Shown: positions 12,410 to 64,000 of the stretch, one piece after another
Layout: each line of letters opens with the position of its first letter
How positions within the stretch are numbered: the stretch's first letter is position 1
The notes under the pieces: generated by a model
The model's database searches: none
What the model was told of the DNA's origin: nothing
Seen by the model: the letters and a program-made list of their open reading frames with translations, nothing else
NCBI RefSeq assembly: GCF_033441515.1
Contig: NZ_JAWQJT010000002.1
Span: forward strand, 1,860,001 to 1,924,000
Origin: Amycolatopsis solani
GTDB taxonomy: Bacteria > Actinomycetota > Actinomycetes > Mycobacteriales > Pseudonocardiaceae
Reading direction: 5' to 3'
DNA: 64,000 bases
Translations under genes and position numbers: made by a program

Positions 12410-13350
12410 GCTCCGCCGTTCTCGTGCTGCGCGCGCTCGGGCTCGGGGACCTGCTGACGGCGGTGCCCGCGCTCCGGGCGCTGCGGGCGGCGCACCCGGA
12501 CGACCGGCTGGTGCTGGCCGCCCCCGAGGGTCTGCGCGACCTGGTGGAGCTGATCGACGCGGTCGACGAGCTGCTGCCGACGCCGGGCCTCGGGGAACTC
12601 GCGTGGCCGGGACCGCCGCCGAAGCTCGCGGTCAACCTGCACGGCAGCGGGCCGGAGAGCCTCCACGACCTCCTGCAGACCGACCCCGCGGAGCTGCTCA
12701 CCCACCACCACCCGGACTTCCCCGACGTGCCCGGACTCGCGTGGCGCGACGACGTGCACGAGGTCGACCGCTGGTGCCGGCTCGTCGAGTACGGCCACCT
12801 CCCGGCCGACCGCTCGGCACTGGCGCTGCCGGTGCCGCCGGGTCCCAGCCCCGCCCCGGGCGCCGTCGTCGTGCACCCGGGCGCGGCGTTCCCCGCCCGG
12901 CGCTGGCCGCCGGAGCGGTTCGCCGTCGTCGTCCGGGCGCTCGCCGCGGCCGGGCACCGCGTCGTGCTCACCGGCGGTCCCGGGGAACGCGACCTGTGCC
13001 GGTCGATCGCCGAACCGGCCGGGCTCGGCGACGACGCCGTGCTGGCCGGGCGGACCGGCCTGGCGGAACTGGCCGCGCTGGTGGCCGGGGCCGCGCTCGT
13101 CGTCTGCGGCGACACGGGCGTCGGGCACCTCGCGACCGCGTTCGGCACGCCGTCGGTCCTGTTGTTCGGGCCGACCCCGCCGCGGTTGTGGGGACCGCCG
13201 CCGTCCGAGCGGCGGCACGTCGTGCTCTGGGCCGGGAACGTCGGCGACCCGCACGGCGAGGAACCCGACGGCGGCCTGCTCCTGCTCGGCGAGGAGCGCG
13301 TGCTCGCCGCCACCCGCTCGGCGCTCGAGGCGCAGGTGGCGCATGGCTGA
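12406..13350 (+). CDS. Glycosyltransferase family 9 (heptosyltransferase-like)
   Basis: This encodes a 314-residue GT-B enzyme of the family that includes the LPS heptosyltransferases WaaC and WaaF. It begins SSAVLVLRALGLGDLLTAVP and has VVVHPGAAFPARRWPPERFA, VVLTGGPGERDL, and VVCGDTGVGHLATAFGTPS with LLFGPTPP. The D-T-G-x-x-H pattern of the donor site is present. Of two in-frame GTG codons, the one at 12406 is chosen because a GAGGAGGGG site lies 8 nt upstream and it forms a GTGA overlap with the SDR stop. Next to gmhA-hldE, ADP-heptose is the likely donor. Confidence 0.9.
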   Translation: MSSAVLVLRALGLGDLLTAVPALRALRAAHPDDRLVLAAPEGLRDLVELIDAVDELLPTPGLGELAWPGPPPKLAVNLHGSGPESLHDLLQTDPAELLTHHHPDFPDVPGLAWRDDVHEVDRWCRLVEYGHLPADRSALALPVPPGPSPAPGAVVVHPGAAFPARRWPPERFAVVVRALAAAGHRVVLTGGPGERDLCRSIAEPAGLGDDAVLAGRTGLAELAALVAGAALVVCGDTGVGHLATAFGTPSVLLFGPTPPRLWGPPPSERRHVVLWAGNVGDPHGEEPDGGLLLLGEERVLAATRSALEAQVAHG

Positions 13351-14659
13351 GCACATCGGGATCGTCGGCGCGGGTTACGTCGGCCTGACGAGCGCCGCGT
13401 GCTTCGCGCGGCTCGGGCACCGGGTGACCTGCGTGGACGCCGACGAGTCCAAAGTGGACGAGCTGGGCCGCGGCGTGGTGTCGATCGCGGAGCCGGGGCT
13501 GGCCGGACTGGTCGCCCAGGGTCTCGGCGACGGCACGCTCACCTTCACCACCGCCCAGGCCGAGCTCCACGGCACTGATCTGGTGTTCCTGTGCCTGCCC
13601 ACGCCGCCCGCCGAAGACGGGCGCCCCGACCTCGGCGTCCTCGAACACGTCGTCCCGCAACTCGGGCGCCTGCTGCGGCCGGGATGCGTGGTGGTCACGA
13701 AGTCGACGGTGCCGGTCGGCACGGCGGCGCGGCTGCCCGGCCTGCTGGGCCGGGGCGACCTGCCGGTGGCCGCCAACCCCGAGTTCCTCCGCGAAGGTCA
13801 CGCCGTCGAGGACTTCCTGCACCCGGACCGGGTGGTGGTCGGCACCGACCCGCCGGGCTCGGCGGCGGCGAAGCGCGTGGCGCGGCTGTACGAGCCGGCC
13901 GGCGCCCCGGTCGTCACCACCGACTCGGCCAGCGCGGAACTCGCGAAGTACGCGAGCAACGCGTTCCTCGCGGTGAAGCTGTCCTACGTGAACGTCCTCG
14001 CCGAACTGTCCGAGTGCTTCGGCGCCGACGTCCGCGAGGTCGCCCGCACCATGGGCCTGGACGCGCGGATCGGCCCGGAGTTCCTCGCCCCCGGCCCCGG
14101 CTGGGGCGGCTCGTGCCTGCCGAAGGACACCTCCGCGCTGCTGCACGCGGCCGAGGCGGCGGGCGTCGACTTCGGCATCCTGCGCGACGCGGTCCGTGTC
14201 AACGCCCGCCAGCGCGCGCGGGCCGTACGGGCGGTCCGGCAGGCGGTGACCGGCTCACCCGCGGGTTCGCTCGCCGGCGCCCGCGTCGGCCTGCTGGGCC
14301 TGGCGTTCAAGGCGGGCACCGGCGACCTGCGGGACTCCCCCGCGCTGGCGGTGGCCGAGGACCTGGTCCGCGCGGGCGCCGAGCTGACCGCGTACGACCC
14401 CGCGGTCGGCAGCGTGCCCGGTGCGGGCGCGATCCAGGTCGTCGACGACCCCTATCTGGTGGCCAAGGACGCCGCCGCGCTGATCGTGCTCACCGAGTGG
14501 CCGGAGTTCCGCGATCTCGACTGGACGCGGCTGGCCGCGTCGGCCGCGCGGCCGGTGGTCGTGGACACCCGCAACCTCCTCGACCCCGCCGCTCTCGCCG
14601 AGGCCGGCTTCGCCCACGTCGGCGTCGGAACGCGAGCGCACCCTACTCCTTTCGGGTGA
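13343..14659 (+). CDS. ugd: UDP-glucose/GDP-mannose dehydrogenase family, UDP-glucose 6-dehydrogenase
   Basis: The 438-residue product oxidises a UDP-hexose C6 alcohol to a uronate using two NAD+. The N-terminal Rossmann motif is IGIVGAGYVGLTSAACFARL. CLPTPPAEDGRPDL, TKSTVPVGT, NPEFLREGHAVEDFLHPDR and SAELAKYASNAFLAVKLSY follow in order. The catalytic cysteine is Cys258 in GWGGSCLPKD, and LAFKAGTGDLRDSP opens the C-terminal domain. The ATG overlaps the GT9 gene by 8 nt. UDP-glucuronate could be used directly or passed to the UDP-xylose-type enzyme at 7035. Confidence 0.93.
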   Translation: MAEHIGIVGAGYVGLTSAACFARLGHRVTCVDADESKVDELGRGVVSIAEPGLAGLVAQGLGDGTLTFTTAQAELHGTDLVFLCLPTPPAEDGRPDLGVLEHVVPQLGRLLRPGCVVVTKSTVPVGTAARLPGLLGRGDLPVAANPEFLREGHAVEDFLHPDRVVVGTDPPGSAAAKRVARLYEPAGAPVVTTDSASAELAKYASNAFLAVKLSYVNVLAELSECFGADVREVARTMGLDARIGPEFLAPGPGWGGSCLPKDTSALLHAAEAAGVDFGILRDAVRVNARQRARAVRAVRQAVTGSPAGSLAGARVGLLGLAFKAGTGDLRDSPALAVAEDLVRAGAELTAYDPAVGSVPGAGAIQVVDDPYLVAKDAAALIVLTEWPEFRDLDWTRLAASAARPVVVDTRNLLDPAALAEAGFAHVGVGTRAHPTPFG

Positions 14660-51296: not shown

Positions 51297-52010
51297 ATGA
51301 GCACTTTCGAGAAACGCGTCGCCGCGGCCGACTGGGCCGCGGTGGCGGCGGAGGTCGACGACTACGGCTGCGCGCTCCTGCCCCAGCTGCTCACGCCGGC
51401 GGACTGCGCGCAGCTGGTGGCGTTGTGGGACGAACCATCGCACTTCCGGGCGACGGTGAACCTGCGCCGCCACCGCTTCGGGGACAACGGCGACTACCAC
51501 TACTTCGCCGCGCCGTTCCCGGAGCCCGTCCAGCGGCTGCGGCAGGCGCTCTACCCGCGGCTGCTGCCGATCGCGCGGGACTGGTCCGCGCGGCTGGGCC
51601 GGGAGGCGGAGTGGCCGTCCACTTTGGACGAGTGGCTCGCGATCTGCCACGCGGCGGGCCAACGGCGCCCGACACCGATCCTGCTGCGCTACGAGACAGG
51701 CGGCTGGAACGCCCTGCACCGTGACCTCTACGGCGACAAGGTGTTCCCCCTCCAGGTGGTGATCAACCTGAACAACCCGGGCACCGACCACACCGGCGGC
51801 GAGTTCCTCTTGGTGGAGCAGCGCCCGCGAGCACAATCCCGCGGCACGGCAACGCTCATCCCGCAGGGCCACGGCCTGGTCTTCACCACCCGCGACCGCC
51901 CGGTCCGCTCCGCCCGCGGCTGGTCGGCAGCCCCAGTCCGCCACGGCGTATCAGCAGTCCGCACCGGCCGCCGCCACACCCTGGGCCTCGTCTTCCACGA
52001 CGCGGCATGA
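51297..52010 (+). CDS. 2OG-Fe(II) oxygenase (prolyl-hydroxylase-like fold)
   Basis: This encodes a 237-residue dioxygenase. The iron ligands are His141 and Asp143 in GGWNALHRDLYGDKVFPLQV; the distal His and the 2OG-binding Arg are in the C-terminal VRHGVSAVRTGRRHTLGLVF. FHDAA ends the protein. DYGCALLPQLLTPADCAQLV is the typical N-terminal region. It is a separate transcription unit sharing the sigma-factor promoter pattern, so a repair role such as AlkB-like oxidative dealkylation or a related stress role is likely. A protein substrate cannot be excluded. Confidence 0.88.
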   Translation: MSTFEKRVAAADWAAVAAEVDDYGCALLPQLLTPADCAQLVALWDEPSHFRATVNLRRHRFGDNGDYHYFAAPFPEPVQRLRQALYPRLLPIARDWSARLGREAEWPSTLDEWLAICHAAGQRRPTPILLRYETGGWNALHRDLYGDKVFPLQVVINLNNPGTDHTGGEFLLVEQRPRAQSRGTATLIPQGHGLVFTTRDRPVRSARGWSAAPVRHGVSAVRTGRRHTLGLVFHDAA

Positions 52011-52014
52011 CACC

Positions 52015-52247
52015 CGAGGCCCCGCCATCCGGCCGGCCTCGCAACCCACGCCCCTAGCGCACCACCCCACGGCTGGCCCGCACCCACTTCCCGAAGCACC
52101 GCCACCCGGCCGGCCTCGCAACCCCGCGCCCCTGGCGCACCACCCCACAGCCGACCCACACCCACTTCCCGAGGCACCGCCACCCGGCCGGCCTCGCAAC
52201 CCCGCGCCCCTGGCGCACCACCCCACAGCCGACCCACACCCACCTCC
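52015..52247. repeat. 78-bp tandem repeat array downstream of the oxygenase gene
   Basis: Three adjacent copies start at 52015 (77 bp), 52092 and 52170 (78 bp each), followed by a partial copy from 52248. Each copy has CACCCGGCCGGCCTCGCAAC or a close variant, then GCGCACCACCCCAC. Copies two and three are nearly identical. The unit keeps reading frames open on both strands, which makes spurious frames here. Confidence 0.85.
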
Positions 52248-52506
52248 CGAGGCACCGCCACCCTCCGACCCCGCACCACAGCGCGACAACCCACGACCCG
52301 AGCACCCGGCCCGCCCCGCACCCCACTCCCGCGCGCCACCAACACCCGGCCCGCCCCGCACCACAGCGCGACAGCCCGCGAACCCAGGCACCGTCAAGCC
52401 ACCGGCCCCACTCCCCAAGACACAGCACGACAACCGCGAACCCGGAGGCGCGCGTGAACCCCTCACCCCACCGTCAGCCCGCCGGCCCGGCACTCCTCAC
52501 CACAGC
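52248..52506. other. Degenerate C-rich repeats before the next operon
   Basis: This stretch has shorter imperfect repeats, for example CCCCGCACCACAGCGCGACA twice, and is C-rich on the plus strand. I see no gene, no ECF-type promoter like those at 50154 and 51264, and no clear ribosome site before the ATG at 52507. Confidence 0.5.
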
Positions 52507-52887
52507 ATGACCGGCGCCGAACTCGAGGCGCTCGTGGCCCTGATCGGCCGCGCCCGCCACATCGTGGTCGGCACCGCCGCCGATCCGACTTCGCGCACCG
52601 ACGGTGCCCGAATCGCCGCAACATGGGGCGGCCTCGTGCTCGCCACGGTGGCGTGGCCGGAAACGGCGGCGTCATGGCTGCGCCACGCCCGGCGCTTCGC
52701 CACCCCGGCCCCGGACCTCTGGGTGGTCAGCGCCACCCCGGCGGGCTGGGCCGGAATGGTGAAACGGCTCCAGCTCTCGACATCCTGGAGTCCACACCGG
52801 ACAGTCACCACCTCCACGCTCGCGGACTTCGCGTTGCCCGGACTACGCGGCACCCGAGCAGACGGCACAACCTGGGAGAGCAGATGA
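52507..52887 (+). CDS. Conserved-type hypothetical protein coupled to an alkyltransferase
   Basis: The 126-residue product has an alternating beta-alpha pattern: LVALIGRARHIVVGTAADPT, GLVLATVAWPETAASWLRHA, LWVVSATPAGWAGMVKRLQL. It has no motif I recognise. The TGA overlaps the ATG of the second alkyltransferase gene, so the two are co-translated. It may serve alkylation repair or be a small Rossmann-like binding protein; neither is shown. Confidence 0.65.
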   Translation: MTGAELEALVALIGRARHIVVGTAADPTSRTDGARIAATWGGLVLATVAWPETAASWLRHARRFATPAPDLWVVSATPAGWAGMVKRLQLSTSWSPHRTVTTSTLADFALPGLRGTRADGTTWESR

Positions 52888-53372
52888 AACACCTCGCACT
52901 GGATTCCCCCATCGGCACCCTGACCCTGGTCGGCACCGACGACGTCGTGACGGGCGTGTACTTCCCGAACCACTGGACCCGCCCGGACCGCACCGCCTTC
53001 GGAGAACGGGATGACACCGCCTTCCCGGACGCCGTCCACCAGCTGAAGGAGTACTTCGCCGGCCAGCGCACCGCGTTCGACGTCCCGACGCAGGCAGCCG
53101 GCCCCGCCTTCGACCGCGCGGTCTGGGCCGAGATCGCCAAAATCCCGTACGGCACCACGGCGACGTACGGCGACCTGGCCCAAGCCGTCGGCGGGCTCCC
53201 CCACGAGGTCGGCGCGGCCGTGGGCCGCAACCCGCTGAGCATCTTCGTCGCGTGCCACCGGGTCGTCGGCAAGAACGGCAAGCTGACCGGGTACGCGGGC
53301 GGCCTGAAACGGAAGGAGTTCCTGCTGGAACTGGAGCGCCCGCCGGCCACCGAACGCGGGCAGCTCTGGTGA
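52884..53372 (+). CDS. ogt: Methylated-DNA-[protein]-cysteine S-methyltransferase, Ogt type
   Basis: The 162-residue product is an Ogt/MGMT protein. The N-terminus is HLALDSPIGTLTLVGTDDVV, the DNA-binding helix is EIAKIPYGTTATYGDLAQAV, and the acceptor is Cys124 in SIFVACHRVVGKNGKLTGYA. The usual Pro before Cys (PCHR) is Ala here. GLKRKEFLLELE is the normal ending. It is the second alkyltransferase within 2.5 kb, with a separate promoter region, so basal and inducible forms may be divided between them. Confidence 0.92.
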   Translation: MKHLALDSPIGTLTLVGTDDVVTGVYFPNHWTRPDRTAFGERDDTAFPDAVHQLKEYFAGQRTAFDVPTQAAGPAFDRAVWAEIAKIPYGTTATYGDLAQAVGGLPHEVGAAVGRNPLSIFVACHRVVGKNGKLTGYAGGLKRKEFLLELERPPATERGQLW

Positions 53373-53373
53373 C

Positions 53374-53976
53374 CTAAACCCGGCTGAGCAGCATCGTCAC
53401 GCCCAGCCCCGTCATCGTCACGGCGATCACGACGTCCAGCACGCGCCACGCGACGGGCTTGGCGAACACCCCGGCGAGCCGCTTGGCCCCGAACCCGAGC
53501 GCGCTGAACCAGACGGCGCTGGCGATCCCGGCCCCCACGCCGAACAGCCACCGTCCGTCTCCGTGGGCGACGGCGACCGAGCCGAGCAGCAGGACGGTGT
53601 CCAGGTAGACGTGCGGGTTGAGCCAGGTGAAGGCCACGCACGCCAGCACGGCCTTCCGCAGCGGCGTCGTGTCGTCTCCGACCGTCATGACCGACGGCCG
53701 GAACGCCCGCCGGGCCGCTAAGACGCCGTAGCCGAGCAGGAACGCCCCGCCGCCGACGGCGATGACCCCGATGGCGGTGGGCCACCGCTCCAGCACCGCC
53801 CCGATCCCGCTCACCCCGAGCCCGATCAGCACCAGATCGGAGACAGCGCAGATGACGACCAGCGGCGCCACCGCACCCCCGCGCAGCCCTTGCTGCAAGA
53901 GAAAGGCGTTCTGTGAACCGATCGCGACGATGAGGGACAGCCCGGTCCCGAACCCGGCCAGGAGAAGCGTGAACAC
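53374..53976 (-). CDS. LysE/ArgO-family amino acid exporter
   Basis: This encodes a 200-residue membrane protein with six hydrophobic segments. The family signature GSQNAFLLQQGLRGG follows the first span, and FTWLNPHVYLDTVLLLGSVA is the second signature. Relatives export arginine or lysine. It is divergent from a LysG/ArgP-type LysR gene, the standard pairing for such exporters. It starts with GTG at 53976 and converges on the ogt gene with a 1-bp gap. Confidence 0.93.
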   Translation of the reverse strand: MFTLLLAGFGTGLSLIVAIGSQNAFLLQQGLRGGAVAPLVVICAVSDLVLIGLGVSGIGAVLERWPTAIGVIAVGGGAFLLGYGVLAARRAFRPSVMTVGDDTTPLRKAVLACVAFTWLNPHVYLDTVLLLGSVAVAHGDGRWLFGVGAGIASAVWFSALGFGAKRLAGVFAKPVAWRVLDVVIAVTMTGLGVTMLLSRV

Positions 53977-54000
53977 GCAGTCACGGTACGGCCGTCCGGC

Positions 54001-54042
54001 TGGGTTACTCCAGCTAAAGATTCTTACGTAACATTAGCGCTC
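54001..54042. promoter_or_regulatory. Operator region between the exporter and LysR genes
   Basis: The 69-bp gap holds an AT-rich stretch unlike its surroundings, with the palindrome TTACGTAA (54024-54031) and a T-N11-A type arrangement expected of LysR sites. It is the probable target of the adjacent regulator and includes both promoters. Confidence 0.55.
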
Positions 54043-54045
54043 GTG

Positions 54046-54921
54046 ATGTCCGATCTCCCACTCGACCAGGTCCGCACGCTGCTGGCCGTCGTGGACGAGC
54101 AAAGCTTCGACGCCGCGGCGGCGGTCCTGCACGTAACGCCCTCGGCGGTCAGCCAGCGCGTCAAAGCTCTCGAGCAGCGCACCGGCCGGGTGCTGCTCCT
54201 GCGCACCAAGCCGATCCAGCTGACGGCGTCGGGCCAGGTTCTGGTCCGGTTCGCGCGGTCACTGGCGCAGCTGGAGCAGGACGCGCTGTCCGAACTGGGC
54301 CTCGGCTCGTCGGTCCGCACCCTCTCGATCGCGGTCAACGCGGACTCCCTGGCCACCTGGTTCCTGCCGGCACTGGCCGAAGTCCCCGACGCCATCTGCT
54401 TCGACCTCCAACGAGAAGACCAGGACCACACCGCGGCCCTGCTCCGCGAAGGCCTTGTGATGGCCGCGGTAACGGCGTCGCCCCAACCGGTCCAGGGCTG
54501 CACGTCGGTGCGGCTGGGCCGCATGCGCTACCGGGCGATGGCGTCGCCGGCGTTCGTCGCCAAGTGGCTGTCGGCGGCTCCCCTGCCGTCGGCCCTCCCC
54601 ACCGCGCCGGTGATCGTGTTCGACCGCAAGGACGACCTGCAGGACCGCTTCCTCCGCGGCCTGACGCGCCGCCGGAGCTTCACGCTGGTCTGCCACCACA
54701 TCCCGGCTTCGGAATCCTTCGTGGACGCCGTCGCCGCGGGACTCGGCTGGGGCATGGTGCCGGAGATCCAAGCGGCCACGCGGGGTGCGGCGCTCGTGGA
54801 CCTCGCTCCGGACCGGCCGCTCGACGTGCCGCTGCACTGGCAGCAGTGGAAGCTGGACTCCCCCGCACTGGCCGCGGTGGCCGGTGCGGTGGCCCGGGGC
54901 GCGCGGGCATCCCTTCGCTGA
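54046..54921 (+). CDS. LysR-family regulator, LysG/ArgP type
   Basis: The protein has 291 residues. The N-terminal winged helix is LDQVRTLLAVVDEQSFDAAA, VLHVTPSAVSQRVKALEQRT. The effector domain has SIAVNADSLATWFLPALAEV and PQPVQGCTSVRLGRMRYRAM, close to LysG/ArgP proteins that sense lysine or arginine. It is divergent from the LysE-type exporter and should activate it when basic amino acids accumulate. A GTG one codon earlier (54043) is an alternative start. Confidence 0.93.
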   Translation: MSDLPLDQVRTLLAVVDEQSFDAAAAVLHVTPSAVSQRVKALEQRTGRVLLLRTKPIQLTASGQVLVRFARSLAQLEQDALSELGLGSSVRTLSIAVNADSLATWFLPALAEVPDAICFDLQREDQDHTAALLREGLVMAAVTASPQPVQGCTSVRLGRMRYRAMASPAFVAKWLSAAPLPSALPTAPVIVFDRKDDLQDRFLRGLTRRRSFTLVCHHIPASESFVDAVAAGLGWGMVPEIQAATRGAALVDLAPDRPLDVPLHWQQWKLDSPALAAVAGAVARGARASLR

Positions 54922-54931
54922 CGGGGAGTGC

Positions 54932-54983
54932 TGAGCAATGCCTGAGTAGCGCCCGGCTCCCGCAGTTGAGTAGCGATTGCTCA
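54932..54983. promoter_or_regulatory. Paired TGAGTAGCG direct repeats within an inverted repeat
   Basis: TGAGTAGCG occurs at 54943-54951 and 54967-54975, 24 bp apart. They are framed by TGAGCAAT (54932-54939) and its complement ATTGCTCA (54976-54983). The block lies about 90 bp upstream of the five-gene peptidase locus and may be its operator. Confidence 0.5.
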
Positions 54984-55068
54984 CGACGTGCGCGGCCGTG
55001 ACGGCGATCCTGGATCGCACCGCCGAGACCGGCGGGTCACTGTGGTCCCACGGCGAGGGAGGCCAGTC

Positions 55069-56202
55069 ATGGCATGGCGAGTCGCACGATCGCTCGAAGT
55101 CCTGCGGGCCCAGCTGAACACGATCGCGCCGGGCCGCGACCGCTCGAGCGACGGCGGGATCGGCGACGCCGCGCACGCTTCGCGCGACAGCGACCACAAC
55201 CCCTGGTTCCACCTGCCCGGTGACCCGACCGGAATCGTCACCGCGCGGGACTTCACGCACGACCCGGCGGGCGGGCTCGACGGGCAGCGGCTCGCCGACA
55301 CCCTCGAACAAGGGCGTGACCGGCGGATCAAGTACGTCATCTGGAACCGGCGGATCATGGCGGGGGACGCCGGCCCGTCGCCGTGGGAGTGGCGGACCTA
55401 CCGCGGCGCCAACCCGCACACGAAACACCTGCACCTGTCCGTGCTCGCCGACGCGACCTGCGACGACACCACGGAATGGGCACTGGTCGGCCTGGCCAGG
55501 CCGAGCGCCGCCGAATGGGCCGAGTTCGCGAACACCCCGTTCGAATGGGTCACCGACGACGAGTCCGAGCCCTTCCTGTTCATCGAGGAGTTCCCGGACC
55601 AGGAAGACGTCGGGAAGTTCCTCGCCGGGCTGGGTGCGGGCGCCGCCACCGGCGCGGCCACGGGTGCCGCGGCCGGTCCGTGGGGAGCGCTGATCGGCGC
55701 CGGGATCGGCGCCGGCCTTTCGGCGATCTCCCAGGCGACCGCCCCGCAGCCACCGGCGCGCCCGCCCGCCCCGCCCCGGCCGCGGCCCCCGGCACCGGCG
55801 CCCGCACCCGCGCCGACGCCCGCACCCGCGCCCGCCGTGGTTTCCCCGCCCGCGCCGGGAGGCCGCCCCGCGCCGTTGCCTCGGCCGATCGCACCGGTTC
55901 CGACTGTCCGGCCCGGGGTCGTGCCACCGCAGGCACCGGCGCAAGACGGGACCGCGCTACAGCTGGCTCTGCTCCTGCCCGCGCTGGCGCAGCTCGTGCA
56001 GTCCATGGCGGCGCAGCCGGGAGCCGCACCGCCGGCCCCGGCGGTCGACCGGTCGGATCCGGCCACCGACGACGCGGCCTGGGAGGACTTCGCCGAGTAC
56101 GAGACGTCCTACTACGGCCCGACCGGCGAGTACGGCGAATTCGACGAACGCCGGGCCGGGCCGCCACCCGAACTCGGCGACGAGCCGATCGAGGGGTGCT
56201 GA
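55069..56202 (+). CDS. M15-like peptidase with glycine zipper and proline-rich tail
   Basis: The protein has 377 residues. Residues about 25-130 show a Hedgehog/DD-peptidase (M15-like) pattern: ASRDSDHNPWFHLP, GIVTARDFTHDP and PHTKHLHLSVLAD, giving His, Asp and His candidates for a zinc site. Residues about 185-225 are a glycine zipper (FLAGLGAGAATGAATGAAAG, then ALIGAGIGAGLSAI) that could insert in membranes. Then comes a Pro/Ala-rich linker, a hydrophobic stretch (LQLALLLPALAQLVQSM) and an acidic Tyr/Glu tail. No Sec signal is visible. It is the first gene of the five-gene locus and has GGGAGG before the ATG. The role of the enzyme domain is inferred only. Confidence 0.8.
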   Translation: MAWRVARSLEVLRAQLNTIAPGRDRSSDGGIGDAAHASRDSDHNPWFHLPGDPTGIVTARDFTHDPAGGLDGQRLADTLEQGRDRRIKYVIWNRRIMAGDAGPSPWEWRTYRGANPHTKHLHLSVLADATCDDTTEWALVGLARPSAAEWAEFANTPFEWVTDDESEPFLFIEEFPDQEDVGKFLAGLGAGAATGAATGAAAGPWGALIGAGIGAGLSAISQATAPQPPARPPAPPRPRPPAPAPAPAPTPAPAPAVVSPPAPGGRPAPLPRPIAPVPTVRPGVVPPQAPAQDGTALQLALLLPALAQLVQSMAAQPGAAPPAPAVDRSDPATDDAAWEDFAEYETSYYGPTGEYGEFDERRAGPPPELGDEPIEGC

Positions 56203-56206
56203 GCGG

Positions 56207-56692
56207 ATGAACCCGGCGATGATGGCGCTGCTCACCAAGCAGCTGGCCGCGCAGAACGGCGGCGGTTCCGCCGAAACCGCCGGCGGTGACGGGCCGGCCA
56301 TGGACCCGCTGATGTCGACCCTGCTCAGCCAGATGGCCGGCTCCGGCGGCGAAAGCGAGCAAGAGAAACGGGTCGAAGAACTCGAGAACCGGCTCGCCGC
56401 GGCCAAACGGCGGATCGGTTCGCTGCGAGCCGCGTTGAGCGTCTCCGAGGAAATGATCGAGTTCGTGGCAGAAACCCTCGGCGCCTGCCGGGAGTGCTGG
56501 GGCCTGAACCAGCTGTGCCGTCGGTGCCACGGTGCCGGTGGCCCCGGCTGGCGGCACCCGAGCACCGAAGAACTCCTGCTGTGGATCGAACCGGCGCTCG
56601 CCCGTTCCGGTCTTCGAGTGCTGCAGCGCACCACGCACGCGATCGAGGAAGGAGCGGATCCGGAGCGCATCGGTCAACACCGGGCGAGTTGA
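56207..56692 (+). CDS. Coiled-coil protein with a DnaJ-type zinc finger
   Basis: The 161-residue product has an N-terminal Gly/Met-rich part, a coiled coil ([20 protein letters not shown]) and a zinc-finger cluster, CRECWGLNQLCRRCHGAGGP. It thus has the spacing CxxC-x7-CxxCxG of a DnaJ zinc-finger repeat unit. The C-terminal part is helical. It starts 4 nt after the M15-like gene and is surely co-transcribed. A chaperone- or assembly-type role within the locus is possible but unproven. Confidence 0.78.
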   Translation: MNPAMMALLTKQLAAQNGGGSAETAGGDGPAMDPLMSTLLSQMAGSGGESEQEKRVEELENRLAAAKRRIGSLRAALSVSEEMIEFVAETLGACRECWGLNQLCRRCHGAGGPGWRHPSTEELLLWIEPALARSGLRVLQRTTHAIEEGADPERIGQHRAS

Positions 56693-56735
56693 GTGAATTT
56701 CGGGCAGCGACGAGGAACGACCAACGGAGAACACG

Positions 56736-57437
56736 ATGCCGGTCATGCACGAGAACGACGAAGACACCTTCGAATCCGATTGGGACGAGGCCTTCGACGA
56801 GTTGGAATCCGACGACGAAGGGCTCTACGACGACGAAGCCGCGCCCTCGGCGCAGTTCCGCGGCGGGTTCGCTCCGCTGCGGCGCAGCCCGCTCGGCCGC
56901 GTCACCACACCGACCGGCAGCGGGGTTTCCGCCGCCGTGCTCGCGACCCCGCAGGGGCAGGCGAGGATGCAGCTCTCGCAGAGCGTCGTCAGCAAGACCG
57001 ACTTCGACTCGACGATCACCGCACTGCGCAACGGGCTCAACCGCAACACCGATCGGCTGAACACCGTCCAGCGGGACGTCGCCGGCCTCTCCAGCCGCGT
57101 CACCGCGGTCTTCAACGCCGATCAGCGCCAGCGCCGGGAACTGGCGAAACTGCGCGCCCAGACGACGAAGTGGCAGAAGGCGAACACGACGGCGATCACC
57201 AAGGCGCGCCGGGAATCGCAGAACACGACCATGCTGTTCGTGCTGCTGACCGTGCTCGGGCAGAGCAGTTCGGGCACCACCAACAACAACGCGTTGATCC
57301 TGCTCCCCCTCCTGCTGCTCGGTGGGCTGGGCGGAGACGGTGGCGGCAGTGGCGGCGGCGATGCCAACAACAACATGATGACCATGCTGATCCTCGTCCT
57401 CGTGCTGACCGGGAGCCTGGGCACCAAGACCGCCTAG
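56736..57437 (+). CDS. Acidic coiled-coil protein with two hydrophobic segments
   Basis: The protein has 233 residues. Residues 1-38 are very acidic (ENDEDTFESDWDEAFDELES), and residues about 95-160 form a coiled coil (LRNGLNRNTDRLNTVQRDVA). Residues about 165-233 hold hydrophobic stretches, MLFVLLTVLGQ, ALILLPLLLLGGLG and MMTMLILVLVLTG, separated by Gly/Asn-rich loops. No signal peptide is present. It may be a membrane-active or self-assembling structural part. I do not recognise a family. Confidence 0.75.
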   Translation: MPVMHENDEDTFESDWDEAFDELESDDEGLYDDEAAPSAQFRGGFAPLRRSPLGRVTTPTGSGVSAAVLATPQGQARMQLSQSVVSKTDFDSTITALRNGLNRNTDRLNTVQRDVAGLSSRVTAVFNADQRQRRELAKLRAQTTKWQKANTTAITKARRESQNTTMLFVLLTVLGQSSSGTTNNNALILLPLLLLGGLGGDGGGSGGGDANNNMMTMLILVLVLTGSLGTKTA

Positions 57438-57459
57438 ACCCGACGGGGAGGAGACGATC

Positions 57460-57894
57460 ATGTACAACGAATCGCTGATCCCGATCATCCTGCTGCTCTC
57501 CAGCGGCAAGGAGGTGCAGCGGCGCAGCCAGCAGGCGGTCCTGCTGAACACCATCCCGATCGCCTCGAACATGCGGGGCACGATCGGCGCGCTGGGCGCC
57601 GTCCAGCAGGCGAAGCAGTCGCTCGTCGACGAGGCGCAGGCGGTCAACGCGGCCGCGGACCTGCTCCTCGACGTCATCCAGGGCGGCGGCACGATCGACC
57701 TCGCCCGGCTGCAGGCCGACGCGGTGCTCCAGCGGATCGCTTCGCAGGAGATCGCGGACAAGCTGCAGGCGATAGTGGACTTGGCGACGTCGATGCCGGA
57801 CGGCGGCAAGGCCGTCACCGAACGGGCCCGGCCCAACGGCGAGGAGTCCGCGAGCACCCGGAGGAAGGCCGTCGCCGCCGGTCCGGCGAAGTGA
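57460..57894 (+). CDS. Small helical protein of the peptidase locus
   Basis: This encodes a 144-residue protein that starts with a short hydrophobic segment (YNESLIPIILLLSSGKEVQR) and continues as long helices (VQQAKQSLVDEAQAVNAAAD; IASQEIADKLQAIVDLATSM). GGGGAGGAG precedes the ATG. The hydrophobic start resembles the ILLPLLLL stretch of the previous protein. The short tail is basic and polar. The function is unknown; a partner of the preceding membrane-active protein is conceivable. Confidence 0.72.
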   Translation: MYNESLIPIILLLSSGKEVQRRSQQAVLLNTIPIASNMRGTIGALGAVQQAKQSLVDEAQAVNAAADLLLDVIQGGGTIDLARLQADAVLQRIASQEIADKLQAIVDLATSMPDGGKAVTERARPNGEESASTRRKAVAAGPAK

Positions 57895-57964
57895 CGGCGC
57901 ACGGGCAACCGGGCCGTCCGGACGCGGCGATCCGCGTCCGGACGGCGATGGGAGGCGAGTCTTC

Positions 57965-60900
57965 GTGACCGGAACGCCGCAGTTCGATCCCGCGCTCAAA
58001 GCGCACCTGCTCGCCGGAGCCGGGACCGCGCCGGGCACGGAACTGGCCGTCATCGCGCGGCTGCACGACCGGGCCACCGCGGTCCAGGACCTGCGGGTGG
58101 TCGCCCGGTTCGGGGACGTCGTCACGGCCCGGGTGCCACTCGAGCGGCTGCTGGCCGTGCGGGCGGACCCGAACGTGGCCAGCCTGAAAGCGGGCCGCAC
58201 GTACGCGCCGACGCTGGCCCGGTCCGTGCCGGCGCTCGGTGCGTCCCCGGAGCAGCTCCGCGTCGTCGGCCTGCCCGAGGGGATCGACGGCAGCGGCACG
58301 CTGCTCGGCGTCGTCGACTGGGGTGTCGACGCCGGGCACGCGAACTTCCGCGACGGCAACGGCGGCACCCGGCTGCTGCGGCTGTGGGACCAGCGGGGCG
58401 CGGAAACACCGTCCAGCCCGGCGCCGTTCGGCTACGGCCGGGTCTTCACCCGCGAACAGATCGACGCGGCGCTCGTCACCGGCGACGTCTACACCGCGCT
58501 CGGCTACGACCCCGCCGACGCCGACCCCACGCGCACCGGGACGCACGGCACCCACGTGCTCGACATCGCCGCCGGCAGCGGCCGCGCCCCGGGCGCGGCT
58601 CCCGGCGTGGCCCCCGGTGCCGACCTCGTTTTCGTGCACCTGAAGGCAGACGACACGCGGGTCGAGGACACCCTCGGGGACTCGGTCCGGATCCTGGAAG
58701 CCATCCGGTACGTCACCGACGTGGCCGACGAACTCGACCGGCCGGTGGTGATCGGGTGCTCGTTCGGGCGGACGGGCGGCCCGAAGGACCAGAGCCCGCT
58801 GGTCGTGCAAGGCATCGACGCGCTGCTCGCCGAGAAGCCCGGCCGCCAGGTCGTGGTCAGCGCCGGCAACTACTTCGACGCCCGGCTGCACGCGGCCGGC
58901 CGGATCCGCGCCGGCGACGTGCTCAGCCTGCCGTGGATCCTGCCGGAGCGCGGCCACGGCGTCGCCGAGATCGAGGTCTGGTACCCCGGCGAGGACCGGC
59001 TCGACGTCGAGCTGCTCGATCCGGCCGGCACCCGGGTCGCCGGCGCGGCACTGGGCGACGACGACGTCGCCACCGACGAGCGGGGCACGCTGGCCGCGCT
59101 GTTCCACCGGCGGTGGGACCCCAACAACGGCGACAACCTGATCAACGCGCTGGTGCAGCCGAGGGCCCCGGCGGGAACGTGGACGCTGCGCCTGCGCGGC
59201 GACCGCGTTTCCGACGGCGCGTGGCACGCCTGGATCGAGCGGGCGTCCGTGCGGGCGCAGTCACGGTTCCCCGGCGCGGTCGCCAACCCGGCCACCACGA
59301 TCGGCACGATCGCCGGCGGCGAGCGCAGCATCGCGGTCGCGGCCCTCGACCTGGAGCGCGGCGCGCCCGCGGCGTTCAGCAGCGCCGGCCCGACCCGCGA
59401 CGGCAGGCTCAAGCCCGACCTCGCCGCGCCCGGTTACGCGATCAAGGCGGCGAAGTCGAGTACGCGCACCGAAACCGGCCGGACGTCCGACGAGCTGACG
59501 GTCAAGAGCGGCACCAGCATGGCGACCCCGCACGTCGCGGGCACGATCGCGCTGATGAACCAGGCTGCGGCACCGCGGCGCCTGACGGCGGAGGAGACCC
59601 TGCGCATCCTGCGCCACACGGCCCTCCGCGACCCGGCGGCCAACCAGCCGGAGCTGCTGCGCTTCGGGTCGGGCCGCGTCAACGCGGCGGCCGCCTGCCG
59701 GGCCGCTGCCGCGCTGGCCCGAGGTGGGCGGCCGGCGGCGGAGTCCGAGGCTGCGGAGGCGACCTTCGCGCCCGACGAGAGCGTGGCGGAACCGGACGAG
59801 GCGGTGCGGCGCTCGAGACGGGGACGCCGGGCCCCTTCACGGCCGACGCGCCCGGGAACCGGCGGCGCAACAACACAACCCGCGCCGGCCACCACTCAAC
59901 CGGGCGGGGCCACCAGTCCGCCGGGCGGGGCGACGCCGGCCATTCCACCGGGCGGCGCCACCACTCCGCCGGGCGGGGCCACGCCAGCCACTCCACCGGG
60001 CGCGGCCACACCTGACACTCCAGCGGGCGTGGGCGCGCCGACCCCGGCCCCACCGACCGCTTCCGCTCCGGCCACGCCGACCGGCGACTTGCCCGGCCTC
60101 CTGCCCTTGGACCCGCCACCCGCACCGACGACCCCGGCAATCGCGCCCCCACCACCCCCGGCGGCCGTGGCGGCGCCCCCCGCCGAACCCGCACCGCCGA
60201 CCGCACCACCCGCCGGGCTGACGTCGCCGACCGCTCCCACCAGTCCCGCCGCCGGCGACTTGCCCGGTCTCGTGGCGCTCGAACCACCACCGGCGCCCCC
60301 TGCGGTCACGACCGCGCCACCAGCCCGCCCCACCGCACCGCCGCCGACCGCTGCCCCGGTCGCACCCGCCGGCGACTTGCCCGGCCTCCTACCGCTCGAT
60401 CCCCCAGCCCCACCGACGACACCGGCGGTCGCAACCACGCCACCAGCCCAACCCACCGCACCACCGCCACCTGCCACCACCGCGGCAGCCGCACCACCGC
60501 CACCCGCCGCCACCACTGCGGCAGTCGCGCCCGGCGGTGACCTGCCCGGCCTCCTGCCCCTCGATCCCCCAGCCACAGCGGCGACCCCGACGCTCACGAC
60601 CGCGCCGGCAGCCCAATCCGCCGCACCACCGCCGACCGCCGCCCCGGTCGCACCCGCCGGTGACCTGCCCGGCCTCCTACCCCTCGACCCCCCATCCCCG
60701 CCGACGACCCCGGCGGTCGTCACCGCCGCACCGCAAGCCCAGCCGGGTGCTGCCGGGGAGTTGGCCGGTCTCCCGGACCCCGCACCGCATGTGCCGAGCA
60801 AAGGACAGCCGCTCATGACGTCGTCACTGGTCGTCTCCGATGAGTTTGCCGAAGACACCCACGGGCGGGTTCCCGACTGGCCCGGTGCGACCCCCGACCA

Positions 60901-63295
60901 GCTCCGGTTCATGGCCGAGGTCTTCGCCCGGCACGTGGCGAACTCCGAACGGATCCGGCCCTACGTCGCCGATGTGCCCGCCTCCGAACTGTCCACTGTG
61001 GAAGGTGGGCACCAGCTCCGGACGGCCGCCGCCGCGGATGCGGTGGCCATGCTCGCCGCGGCGCGGGGGGAGCTCGGGGGGCGGAGCCGGGTCGGCGTGG
61101 TGTCCGGTTATCGGTCCGCGTCGCGGCAGTTCTCGCTGTGGCAGCAAGGCTTTCCGCGGTATTACCGGGAAACCGAAGACAGCCGCGCCGCGCTTCCCGG
61201 TGGGGTGCACGGGAGTGCCGCCGCCGACTCCCTCGCCAGGGAGATCGGGCGGTGGCTCGGCGCTCCCGGGCACAGCCTGCACAACGACGGCCGGGCGCTC
61301 GACCTCGGCGTCACCGAAGACGGCGTCCGGCTCAGCGCCCGCCGGGGCGACAACCCGCGCTGGCTGACTTCGCGCCTGTTCGCGTGGCTGTCGGCCAACG
61401 CCGCCCGGTTCCACTTCGAACAGGACCCCTCGATCACCGAGTACTGGCACTGGCGCCACACCGGGGCCACCGAGTCGTCCCCGGAAGAGAGCGTCGCGCT
61501 CCCGGCGGGCGAGCTCGTGCTGAACGACGTCGAACTGCTGCGTCCGCACCGCGGCACCCCGCCCGATCTGCTGATCCGGTGGAACGAACTGCCGGCCGGG
61601 ACGCAGTCGGCCGACGTCGTCGTGCACTTCCACGGCTACTCCGGGCGGCGGTCCGCCATGGACATCGTCCGGGACAAGGCCCCGAACAGCGGGCTCGACT
61701 TCGCCGATCCCGACGGCGGCGCCGACGCGGCCCGCCGGACCCGGCCGACGATCGGCCTGCTGCCCCGGGGGAACCACTTCGGCGGACGCAGCGGGAACGG
61801 CTACGACTTCCCGCAGCTCATGGCGCCCGGGAAGCTGACCGAGCTGATTTCGCTGGCGCTGGCCGCGGTGGCCGAACGCGCCGGCTCGCCCGGGATCACC
61901 GCGGGACGGCTCATCCTCACCGCGCATTCGGGCGGGGGCACGGCGTTGACGCGGGTGCTGGCGCACACCGATCCGGACGAAATCCAGACCTTCGACGCGC
62001 TGTACGGCCCGGTCGGACCGCTCGTCAGCTGGGTCCGCCGCCGGATCGAGCTCGACCGCACCGACCCCGGCCGGCGGGGTTCGCTGCGGGTCTTCTTCCG
62101 GCGCCACGAAGGAACCGAACGCGGCAGCGTCACCGTCGCGGAAGCCCTGCGGACCGCGCTGGCCGGCTCGCCGGTGGCGTCGCGCTACCGGGTCGAGGCC
62201 ACCACGCTCGCGCACGGCGCCATCCCCCGTGCCTACGGCTGGCGGATGCTGGCCGACCCCGGCGCCGACGTCCCGCACGTCGCCCGCGCGGACCAGGCGG
62301 GCGAGGCCGAGTGGTGGCCGTTCCCGCTGCCGGTGCCGCCGGCCGACCCGCTCGTCCCCGACATCGTCCGCGCGATCGCGCAGCACGAAACCGGCGAGCG
62401 GGCTGTGGAATCGTCGATGCACACGAGCGCCGGCGTCCGGGCCAGCATGGCCAGCCAGGTGCAGGCCACCACGCCCTGGGCGATCGACGCCCTCCTCGCG
62501 CTAGACGACGCGGCGCTGACCGGCTTCGGGCTGACCCGGCCGGAACTCACCTCGGCCCGGGACGTCGCGGCCGCGACGCGACGGCTGTGGGGACGGATCC
62601 ACGCCAACGCACCGGGCGCCGACCCGGCCGCGTTCGCCGCCGACCCGGCCAACCAGCCGTTGCTCACCGCCACCGGCTTCGGCCTGACGGAGGTCACGAC
62701 GATGTTCGACTTCCGGGAACTGCGCGCGGAAACCGGCACGGCGGTCGCGGTCCGGCTCGGGCAGCTGCAGGCGCTCGGCCAGGCTCAGCTGTTCGCCCGC
62801 GCGGACGCGGCGGACCGCCGGTTCGCGGGGGTGTCGGCCGCGGGCCAGCTGGCGGACGCGCAGCGCCGGGCGACGCTGGAACGCCGCGTCTCCGCGCGGG
62901 AGGGGGCGGCCGACGTCATGACGGCCTCGGCCCGGCCCGCGCGGCTCGGGATCCGCGAAACCGACCTGTTCGCCTACGCGCGCGGCAACTGGGGCGAGGA
63001 CGGCGCGGCGTGGCAACGGCTCGCGGTGAGCAGGCAGCCGGCCGGTCCCCGGATCGAGGCCGCGGCGACCGCCGACCAGGGGCTCGAGCTCGGCCGCGCG
63101 CGGGTCCGCCGGATCGTCGACGCCTTCCGCGCCGACCCGGCCACCGCGTCGGCCACCGACGAACGCGTCTGCGCGCACGTCGCCTCCCGGCACAACCCCG
63201 GCGCCGGCGACCGGTACCGCGACGACGTGGTGGCGCACTTCCTCGCCCTGCGCGGAAGTACCGGACAGCGGTGCAGCAACCACGGCCGGCTCTGA
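57965..63295 (+). CDS. Giant multidomain protein: subtilase, Pro-rich linker, VanY-type carboxypeptidase, alpha/beta hydrolase
   Basis: The protein has 1776 residues. Residues about 100-600 form an S8 subtilase with Asp118 (LGVVDWGVDAGH), His194 (GTHGTHVLDIAAG) and Ser518 (KSGTSMATPHVAG). Residues about 610-945 are Pro/Ala/Thr-rich with five copies of a GDLPGLLPLDPP-type motif. Residues about 975-1165 form an M15B D,D-carboxypeptidase, with GYRSASRQ, His1106 and Asp1113 (HSLHNDGRALDLGV), and Glu1159 and His1162 (EYWHWRH). Residues about 1185-1435 look like an alpha/beta hydrolase, VVHFHGYSGRR and nucleophile Ser1322 in TAHSGGGTAL. The remaining 340 residues are helical. No signal peptide or membrane span is seen. 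GGGAGG lies before the GTG. Three putative hydrolases in one chain suggest a toxin- or scavenging-type machine; this is inference. Confidence 0.85.
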   Translation: MTGTPQFDPALKAHLLAGAGTAPGTELAVIARLHDRATAVQDLRVVARFGDVVTARVPLERLLAVRADPNVASLKAGRTYAPTLARSVPALGASPEQLRVVGLPEGIDGSGTLLGVVDWGVDAGHANFRDGNGGTRLLRLWDQRGAETPSSPAPFGYGRVFTREQIDAALVTGDVYTALGYDPADADPTRTGTHGTHVLDIAAGSGRAPGAAPGVAPGADLVFVHLKADDTRVEDTLGDSVRILEAIRYVTDVADELDRPVVIGCSFGRTGGPKDQSPLVVQGIDALLAEKPGRQVVVSAGNYFDARLHAAGRIRAGDVLSLPWILPERGHGVAEIEVWYPGEDRLDVELLDPAGTRVAGAALGDDDVATDERGTLAALFHRRWDPNNGDNLINALVQPRAPAGTWTLRLRGDRVSDGAWHAWIERASVRAQSRFPGAVANPATTIGTIAGGERSIAVAALDLERGAPAAFSSAGPTRDGRLKPDLAAPGYAIKAAKSSTRTETGRTSDELTVKSGTSMATPHVAGTIALMNQAAAPRRLTAEETLRILRHTALRDPAANQPELLRFGSGRVNAAAACRAAAALARGGRPAAESEAAEATFAPDESVAEPDEAVRRSRRGRRAPSRPTRPGTGGATTQPAPATTQPGGATSPPGGATPAIPPGGATTPPGGATPATPPGAATPDTPAGVGAPTPAPPTASAPATPTGDLPGLLPLDPPPAPTTPAIAPPPPPAAVAAPPAEPAPPTAPPAGLTSPTAPTSPAAGDLPGLVALEPPPAPPAVTTAPPARPTAPPPTAAPVAPAGDLPGLLPLDPPAPPTTPAVATTPPAQPTAPPPPATTAAAAPPPPAATTAAVAPGGDLPGLLPLDPPATAATPTLTTAPAAQSAAPPPTAAPVAPAGDLPGLLPLDPPSPPTTPAVVTAAPQAQPGAAGELAGLPDPAPHVPSKGQPLMTSSLVVSDEFAEDTHGRVPDWPGATPDQLRFMAEVFARHVANSERIRPYVADVPASELSTVEGGHQLRTAAAADAVAMLAAARGELGGRSRVGVVSGYRSASRQFSLWQQGFPRYYRETEDSRAALPGGVHGSAAADSLAREIGRWLGAPGHSLHNDGRALDLGVTEDGVRLSARRGDNPRWLTSRLFAWLSANAARFHFEQDPSITEYWHWRHTGATESSPEESVALPAGELVLNDVELLRPHRGTPPDLLIRWNELPAGTQSADVVVHFHGYSGRRSAMDIVRDKAPNSGLDFADPDGGADAARRTRPTIGLLPRGNHFGGRSGNGYDFPQLMAPGKLTELISLALAAVAERAGSPGITAGRLILTAHSGGGTALTRVLAHTDPDEIQTFDALYGPVGPLVSWVRRRIELDRTDPGRRGSLRVFFRRHEGTERGSVTVAEALRTALAGSPVASRYRVEATTLAHGAIPRAYGWRMLADPGADVPHVARADQAGEAEWWPFPLPVPPADPLVPDIVRAIAQHETGERAVESSMHTSAGVRASMASQVQATTPWAIDALLALDDAALTGFGLTRPELTSARDVAAATRRLWGRIHANAPGADPAAFAADPANQPLLTATGFGLTEVTTMFDFRELRAETGTAVAVRLGQLQALGQAQLFARADAADRRFAGVSAAGQLADAQRRATLERRVSAREGAADVMTASARPARLGIRETDLFAYARGNWGEDGAAWQRLAVSRQPAGPRIEAAATADQGLELGRARVRRIVDAFRADPATASATDERVCAHVASRHNPGAGDRYRDDVVAHFLALRGSTGQRCSNHGRL

Positions 63296-63322
63296 CCGCG
63301 CGGGGCGGCCCACCCCGCGCGG
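63296..63322. terminator. GC-rich hairpin after the giant gene
   Basis: A perfect 10-bp stem, CCGCGCGGGG (63296-63305) and CCCCGCGCGG (63313-63322), with a 7-nt loop starts directly after the stop codon. A second GGCCCACCCCGCGCG copy follows near 63378. It lies between convergent genes. Confidence 0.7.
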
Positions 63323-63419
63323 AACCGCCGAGCCGCGGGACAGCCACCACGACCGGCTCCAACCACCCCGCCGCGGCCCACCCCGCGCGCGGAACCGCGG
63401 CGCCGCAATCACCGCCGGC

Positions 63420-64000
63420 TCACCAGTGGACCCGGCCGGCGAGGGCGCCGGTCAGCTCGTCTCGGCCGGTGATGCCCAGCTTCAGGTAGATCCGGTGCAG
63501 GTGGTTGTCCACCGTCCGCACGGACAACGTCAACCGGTCCGCGATCGCCCGGCTCGGGCGTCCCTCGGCGGCGAGCAAAGCGATCTCGCGCTCCCGGGCC
63601 GTCAGCGGCGCGGCCGGTGCGGCGGCCGCCACCAGCCCCGGCGTACGGGCGCCCGCGCAGGACTGGGCCAGTGTCTGGCCGAGCGCGGCGGCCTTGACGG
63701 CGTCCCCGGTCCGCCCGCTCCGCCGGTGGATCGCGCTCGCCCGGACGGCGGCCTCGGCCGCATACAGGAGAAAACCCCGGTCCGCGAACCACTCGGAAGT
63801 CCGCTCCAGCCACCAAGCGTCCCCGACGACGACCGCGGCGGCGTGCTCGGCGAGCGTCGAAACCAGTGTGCCGTCGACCCCGTGGGTCAGCCGGGCCAGC
63901 CGGTCTTCCGCCCGCCCGAGCTCGCGTTGGGGCCCGCCCAGGCGGACGACGTCGTGCCAGGCCAGCATTTCGAAGCCGGCCGCCCCGGCCTCGGCCGCCT
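63420..64000 (-). CDS. LuxR-family regulator, C-terminal part (cut by window edge)
   Basis: At least 193 codons are visible and the frame continues past the right edge. The C-terminal 65 residues form a LuxR helix-turn-helix: PLTAREREIALLAAEGRPSR, AIADRLTLSVRTVDNHLHRI, YLKLGITGRDELTGAL. The preceding part is helical, TPR-like (LSTLAEHAAAVVVGDAWWLE in type), as in large ATP-binding LuxR (LAL) proteins. It converges on the giant peptidase gene. An internal ATG at 63968 is probably not the start. It could regulate the adjacent locus. Confidence 0.85.
   Translation of the reverse strand, partial: AAEAGAAGFEMLAWHDVVRLGGPQRELGRAEDRLARLTHGVDGTLVSTLAEHAAAVVVGDAWWLERTSEWFADRGFLLYAAEAAVRASAIHRRSGRTGDAVKAAALGQTLAQSCAGARTPGLVAAAAPAAPLTAREREIALLAAEGRPSRAIADRLTLSVRTVDNHLHRIYLKLGITGRDELTGALAGRVHW

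Follow-up and report, generated by a model that had tools for sequence, protein, structure and literature searches.

What might five consecutive genes do together when two of their products carry cutting-type domains and none of the five starts with a Sec-like signal? We addressed this question for a locus of Amycolatopsis solani, which is located in a 64,000-bp stretch of genomic DNA that was analyzed as a whole (the window, to which all unlabeled coordinates refer). A first-pass annotation had described five consecutive plus-strand genes and suggested that they build one antibacterial or defense complex that is delivered by a non-Sec route or released by lysis. The five ORFs were confirmed, and they share order, starts, and constraint with a second Amycolatopsis genome (G003). 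We refer to them as A to E:

Gene A, 55069..56202, + strand: 377 aa; M15-like zinc peptidase domain, glycine-zipper stretch, Pro-rich linker, acidic-aromatic tail.
Gene B, 56207..56692, + strand: 161 aa; coiled-coil-like part (by eye) and a four-cysteine CxxC-x6-CxxC finger.
Gene C, 56736..57437, + strand: 233 aa; acidic N-terminus, coiled-coil-like middle (by eye), two hydrophobic Gly-rich C-terminal segments.
Gene D, 57460..57894, + strand: 144 aa; short hydrophobic start without positive charge, the rest probably helical (by eye).
Gene E, 57965..63295, + strand: 1,776 aa; subtilase region, Pro-rich repeat linker, VanY/M15, alpha/beta-hydrolase, unique tail.

Five constrained genes at a variable site

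The gaps between A and B, B and C, C and D, and D and E are 4, 43, 22, and 70 bp, respectively. The best start of gene A is the ATG at 55069, which is the point where similarity to G003 begins. In G003, in which the E orthologue is P0001 (named Amycolatopsis sp. cg9), the order and the start codons of the five genes are unchanged, and the amino acid identity is 85 to 93%. The corresponding dN/dS values are 0.235 (A), 0.227 (B), 0.265 (C), 0.455 (D), and 0.252 (E). Because order and start codons are kept in G003 and dN/dS lies between 0.23 and 0.46, A to E are real, constrained genes and not chance ORFs, and purifying selection acts on all five.

DNA matches to positions 53300-64000 were present in 80 of 80 Amycolatopsis genomes, and most of them map to the left flank:

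Left flank common to relatives, 53374..54921: LysE-type gene on the − strand and LysR-type gene on the + strand; similarity ends at the LysR stop codon.

Among the matches listed, strong matches to this flank were found in at least 68 of the 80 genomes, and 16 matches extend no further than the LysR stop codon (54921). The LysE-type and LysR-type genes are separated in several Amycolatopsis genomes. Unbroken DNA similarity across all five genes was found in G003 only. In G444 and G457, LysR and the right flank are 4.1 kb apart, with another gene between them, versus 11.3 kb in the window. In relatives (L041 and L042), the gene after LysR is a single gene of ~1,347 codons that by eye encodes an NB-ARC/TPR-like regulator, and its counterpart in the window is the five-gene block together with a LuxR-type gene; this site is, therefore, variable. 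We note that the region to its left (51297-53372) contains DNA-alkylation repair genes (Oxygenase-NA domain, O6-methylguanine methyltransferase).

A whole M15-esterase part of E was found in 2 of the 80 Amycolatopsis genomes, and the only other match, in a third genome, covers the esterase only. Similarly, B has strong matches in 2 of 390 genomes of the family, which are the same two, and any match in 4; the matches in two other genera (9.5e-4 and 9.8e-4) are marginal and were taken as chance or uncertain. These data support that the five genes were gained as a block by two Amycolatopsis species. Because the block represents a single acquisition, the co-occurrence of the five genes is without independent replication.

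Domains of the A to E proteins and the E family

The subtilase-VanY-hydrolase fusion proposed for E in the first-pass annotation was borne out, with S518, H1162, and S1322 all placed in triad or metal-ligand-like motifs:

E residues 1-600, 57965..59764, + strand: subtilase region; D118, H194, S518; Pfam Peptidase_S8 2.3e-32.
E residues 601-960, 59765..60844, + strand: Pro-rich linker; five copies of a GDLPGLLPLDPP-type motif.
E residues 972-1176, 60878..61492, + strand: VanY/M15 peptidase; Pfam VanY 8.7e-13; H1106/D1113/H1162.
E residues 1179-1441, 61499..62287, + strand: predicted feruloyl-esterase/CE1-like alpha/beta hydrolase; S1322/D1344/H1417.
E residues 1446-1776, 62300..63292, + strand: tail; matched in 1 of 29 listed homologues (the orthologue).

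E has the profile match as well as the D/H/S motifs of S8 subtilases (PF00082), and its subtilase region is 39 to 42% identical to nine distant proteins and 94% identical to the orthologue; by eye, the N-terminal segment that precedes it is propeptide-like. The best NCBIfam profiles are CspBA/CspC (CspBA, 2.2e-32), but E scores 111.7 versus a CspBA cut-off of 1,250 bits, which is far below, and E differs from S8 subtilases in being fused to wall-cutting modules and in having no Sec-like start. Likewise, E matches the VanY-type D,D-carboxypeptidases (PF02557) by profile and has their metal-ligand-like His/Asp/His motifs, but it scores 23.5 versus a cut-off of 400 with the VanY-B/G model, and its VanY domain is the middle module of a giant protein. 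A structure model of residues 972-1441 has a mean pLDDT of 88.9, and its esterase part matches the fold of feruloyl esterases, acetyl-xylan esterases, and antigen 85, in a comparison that rests on the VIA-align list and barely probes the M15 part. S1322/D1344/H1417 are invariant in 28 aligned rows (the E part and 27 of the 29 listed homologues, with P0008 and P0016 left out). Based on fold and S-D-H triad, residues 1179-1441 are predicted to be an Esterase D/CE1-like alpha/beta hydrolase, which differs from known members of the feruloyl esterase/CE1/S-formylglutathione hydrolase/antigen 85 fold in its identity of only 11%, in having no Pfam family, and in its fusion to peptidases. The GDLPGLLPLDPP repeat of the linker, which is absent from the first-pass annotation, is partly tandem at the DNA level, and 0 of 2,000 linker shuffles showed the same repetition. 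A guess from the sequence that the tail is lysozyme-like was unsupported by sequence matches; its best PDB match is 0.14 (a CdiA-CT chain), and Pfam CdiA_helical gave 0.029.

Searching with E residues 1000-1776 (E ≤ 0.001; 7,988 scored candidates), we identified at least 29 homologous proteins, the named sources of which include Amycolatopsis, Sphingomonas, Allosphingosinicella, Arthrobacter, Rhodococcus, and Longimicrobium. All 29 listed homologues carry the esterase domain; an E-type subtilase is present in 10, always N-terminally, and an E-type M15 domain in 8, on either side of the esterase. Other modules recognized by Pfam include N-acetylmuramidase, glucosaminidase, phage-type lysozyme, and PG-binding. 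The modules are shuffled, in differing order, across this family. The N-terminal subtilase is common to 10 of the 29, the downstream modules vary, and the tail is found in the orthologue only. In its large size, modularity, and variable C-terminal part, E resembles polymorphic toxins; it differs from these toxins in having no recognized trafficking domain or immunity gene and in carrying several catalytic modules per chain. Among 396 sampled Actinomycetota, strong matches were limited to the genome of the window, with any match in 3, and the family is, therefore, patchy; the partial esterase matches in two of these genomes (1.2e-4 and 2.2e-4) are marginal and were taken as chance or uncertain. 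The esterase domain had zero plasmid matches, and none of the 18 and 111 pattern matches in viral contigs was a relative of the M15-esterase part of E or of B. Two candidates were set aside, i.e. three genome-contig matches to whole E, which look like ordinary subtilases, and an E.PF motif present near the N-terminus in 5 of the 29 listed homologues and nowhere in A to E. The kinds of components are known, and we found no description of such an assembly in the open-access PMC literature.

For A, the proposed M15-like peptidase assignment is supported by PHROG profile 32486 (2.7e-15) and by related plasmid-encoded proteins of Caulobacter, Sinorhizobium, and Microvirga (47 to 53% identity), but not by Pfam, which gave no M15 match at E ≤ 1. 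Plasmid loci that carry the A domain also encode CHAT, trypsin-like, and S8 proteases. The A domain also occurs apart from the block, with DNA matches in at least 16 other Amycolatopsis genomes among the matches listed. The Pfam glycine-zipper match of A is weak (0.0067) and below the cut-off. The DnaJ-type zinc finger proposed for B did not hold up, in that no DnaJ match was obtained in Pfam at E ≤ 1; the four cysteines (CxxC-x6-CxxC) are invariant in four sequences. Besides the G003 orthologue, B has three protein-database homologues at E ≤ 0.01 (169 candidates), on contigs of 1.0 to 2.8 kb. B, C, and D had no convincing family match in Pfam, NCBIfam, PHROG, or the defense profiles and zero plasmid matches. 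An acidic-aromatic motif, which was picked after inspecting the sequences, is enriched in A (8 observed versus 1.5 in shuffles) and C (4 versus 0.4), absent from B and D, and not enriched in E; at p ≤ 0.01, it was found in 0 of the 44 other ORFs of the window and in 4 of the 29 listed E homologues.

A second esterase gene and a sigma-54/glycine-zipper operon

The genome of the window (G000) encodes a second esterase protein, which combines the esterase with DUF2272 and a phage tail lysozyme domain. The esterase domain of E is ~50% identical to that encoded by a gene inside a sigma-54/glycine-zipper operon. Near the second esterase gene are genes for a sigma-54 activator (5.7e-56), an amidohydrolase-like protein, a Tyr/Glu-rich glycine-zipper protein and, in the G003 version, two genes without a Pfam match:

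Sigma-54 (RpoN) factor beside its own activator and a glycine-zipper operon, L030:15632-16867, L032:1800-3398, L013:111-356 (in the genome of the window, G000:C2:457936-458352).

Overlapping gene sets are present in G003, G444, G469, and a Rhizobium megaplasmid; the stretches read of the G469 and Rhizobium versions contain no esterase gene, and that of Rhizobium also no amidohydrolase. The glycine-zipper protein is present in 4 of 80 Amycolatopsis genomes, and sigma-54 is present in the same 4, adjoining the glycine-zipper gene; one further sigma-54 match, in G470 (5.0e-4), is marginal and was considered chance or uncertain, though it is formally above the family cut-off. For the versions of G003 and G469, Pfam matches confirm the sigma-54 factor. 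The lone glycine-zipper-family match in G000 is located 1.46 Mb from the locus of the window. More broadly, the glycine-zipper family had at least 1,082 matches at E ≤ 0.001 among 7,996 scored candidates, 120 of which were listed; the named ones among these are mostly annotated as "hypothetical protein."

A sigma-54 match was found in 21 of 396 Actinomycetota (18 above the cut-off), and all of these except the genome of the window are labeled merely as "same phylum"; sigma-54 is, therefore, present in the phylum and looks rare among the closer kin of the window. Two papers state that this system is missing from Actinobacteria/Actinomycetota; the second of them, which holds that the phylum has in effect no functional RpoN, names a few exceptions such as Alloactinosynnema (PMC12316311). 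An Amycolatopsis sigma-54 factor with an activator and promoter-like sites bears on this printed view.

With a strict −24/−12 pattern, which was chosen after a looser scan, we detected 12 occurrences in 8 of 9 stretches of these loci, several of which are orthologous copies, versus 0 in 156,001 comparison bases that include the window and two overlapping stretches. Because most of the sites fall within longest-ORF calls and immediately precede more likely starts of the genes for RpoN, the glycine-zipper protein, and the esterase-lysozyme protein, we refer to them as putative promoters. In the window, the looser pattern was found 43 times versus 55 expected, i.e. at or below chance, and no −24/−12 promoter precedes gene A. 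The window operon thus appears to be outside the sigma-54 regulon, and the idea that it belongs to this regulon found no support. Also unsupported was the idea that the zipper of A belongs to the glycine-zipper family (hhalign probability 8.9). The acidic-aromatic motif was enriched (p ≤ 0.01) in 84 of the 120 listed glycine-zipper relatives and was not enriched in the glycine-zipper and second esterase proteins of G000 itself (p 0.42 and 0.80, respectively).

We made two further observations on these gene sets. The megaplasmid of Rhizobium sp. CCGE532 carries two tandem genes for glycine-zipper Glu-rich proteins (L014:14662-16417) and a divergent gene for a long hydrophobic protein (13077-14384), and a perfect −24/−12 site precedes each of the first tandem gene (14703) and the divergent gene (14431). 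In addition, the G469 operon contains a gene for a BioF-like PLP enzyme (L031:2783-3862; bioF 1.2e-16, below the cut-off), which by eye has a look-alike in Rhizobium (L014 near 19733).

Export, delivery, and possible function

Using a simple rule for Sec-like starts (10-residue hydropathy ≥2.0 and a preceding K/R), we found none in A to E; the start of D is hydrophobic enough (2.55) and has no K/R before it. By this rule, 28 of the 29 listed E homologues also have no Sec-like start, the exception, P0020, barely passing. The first-pass annotation had pointed to cutting-type domains in proteins without Sec signals, and both observations were confirmed, the domains being of protein-, wall-, and ester-cutting types. 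Inspection of the locus and its immediate surroundings revealed no delivery gene, and an immunity gene was not recognized either. The CIS effector core domain (eCIS core, DUF4157) was not among the Pfam matches of A to E at E ≤ 1. Contractile-injection genes were sought elsewhere in the genome, and G000 has three phage-sheath matches, but the nearest is 0.41 Mb from the locus, and among 12 chosen genomes, all 4 that carry the glycine-zipper gene had such matches, as did 5 of the 8 that lack the glycine-zipper/esterase genes. Separately, a G003 protein of at least 1,400 aa (L023:1-4203), encoded ~8 kb from the esterase-lysozyme gene, has a GNQAV-like stretch and by eye resembles CIS-associated proteins; it has no Pfam match. 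The proposal of a single non-Sec complex is in part sustained by the block gain and the missing Sec-like starts, also of the E homologues, but as one system it is weakened by the single acquisition, by a set that was not seen to recur independently, and by the A and esterase domains that occur apart from B, C, and D.

The simplest reading would be envelope digestion by proteins released without Sec. Specifically, we tentatively favor as plausible that the products of the operon gained by two Amycolatopsis species include two enzymes, A and E, which would leave the producer by a non-Sec route, such as lysis or contractile injection, and would break down the envelopes of other bacteria or of dying sister bacteria. 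E would act as a multi-tool composed of the subtilase, a flexible Pro-rich tether with a docking-like repeat motif, the VanY-type carboxypeptidase, which would trim peptidoglycan stems, and the CE1-like esterase, which would free wall or surface polymers of ester-linked groups. A would contribute another peptidase, of M15-like type, whose glycine zipper is membrane-prone. The putative partners B, C, and D may serve in assembly, in tethering, or at the membrane.

The proposed antibacterial or defense role gained little from the defense profiles, which gave a generic match of the E subtilase to the defense protease IetS (2e-08) and weak matches for C (PDC-S66, 0.0094), D (Cmr5, 0.0041), and A (LeoBC, 0.087). 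An intracellular defense or programmed-death cassette, in which a signal-activated subtilase kills the producer cell, would accommodate the IetS similarity and the protease loci in which the A domain sits on plasmids. However, the IetS match spans residues 431-537 only, and wall- and ester-cutting domains are a poor fit for an intracellular effector and thus make this explanation less likely. NTPase-centered conflict systems have a STAND/AAA-type NTPase in the locus, whereas none was among the Pfam and NCBIfam matches of A to E, and no sensor gene was recognized; altogether, we consider intracellular defense improbable. That A to E are co-transcribed neighbors without a joint function, i.e. 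saprophytic or wall-recycling enzymes acquired together, would agree with the A domain being widespread apart from the block, with the esterase domain in other settings, and with B, C, and D being without a known role. The tight spacing, the order kept in two species, and the purifying selection on all five genes count against mere neighbors and leave this explanation improbable.

Two alternatives, both unlikely in our view, retain a delivered function. In one, A and E are cargo loaded into contractile-injection or tail-like particles encoded by the genome, in which C and D would act as hydrophobic, tape-measure-like components. Giant hydrolases without a signal fit such cargo, the genome has the three sheath matches, and a study of the actinobacterial CIS effectors Sle1/Sle2 describes effectors related to tape-measure proteins (PMC13277306). 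A and E are like Sle1/Sle2 in being actinobacterial, in having no ordinary export, and in a possible tail-related route, but they differ in that no effector core domain was found in A to E and in having no sheath gene within 0.41 Mb, and the sheath matches do not separate glycine-zipper carriers from other genomes. The other alternative sees the operon as a satellite that supplies extra hydrolases to the machinery of the sigma-54/glycine-zipper system. This link is based on the shared esterase domain, the co-presence of both gene sets in the two E-bearing genomes, and the acidic-aromatic motif, which A and C share with most listed glycine-zipper relatives; it is opposed by the missing −24/−12 promoter, by the zipper of A, which is not demonstrably of the glycine-zipper family, by the lack of motif enrichment in the G000 proteins of that system, and by G444 and G469, which have the sigma-54 operon without the block of the window.

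Envelope digestion by A and E after non-Sec release is the reading that we tentatively retain. It is conceivable, though doubtful, that esterase-centered, signal-less multi-hydrolases make up an unrecognized class of weapons, spread across phyla, that are delivered to digest envelopes. They would be served by a machinery for export or lysis that is as yet undescribed and of which the sigma-54/glycine-zipper operon would be one version; the five-gene block would then be a cassette of Amycolatopsis that connects to this machinery through B, C, and D as its adaptors. A family of signal-less multi-enzymes of wall- and protein-cutting types, which recurs in Actinobacteria, Sphingomonas relatives, and Longimicrobium, raises the question of how these proteins reach the wall, and the block of A to E is a compact and discrete gene set with which this route could be probed.
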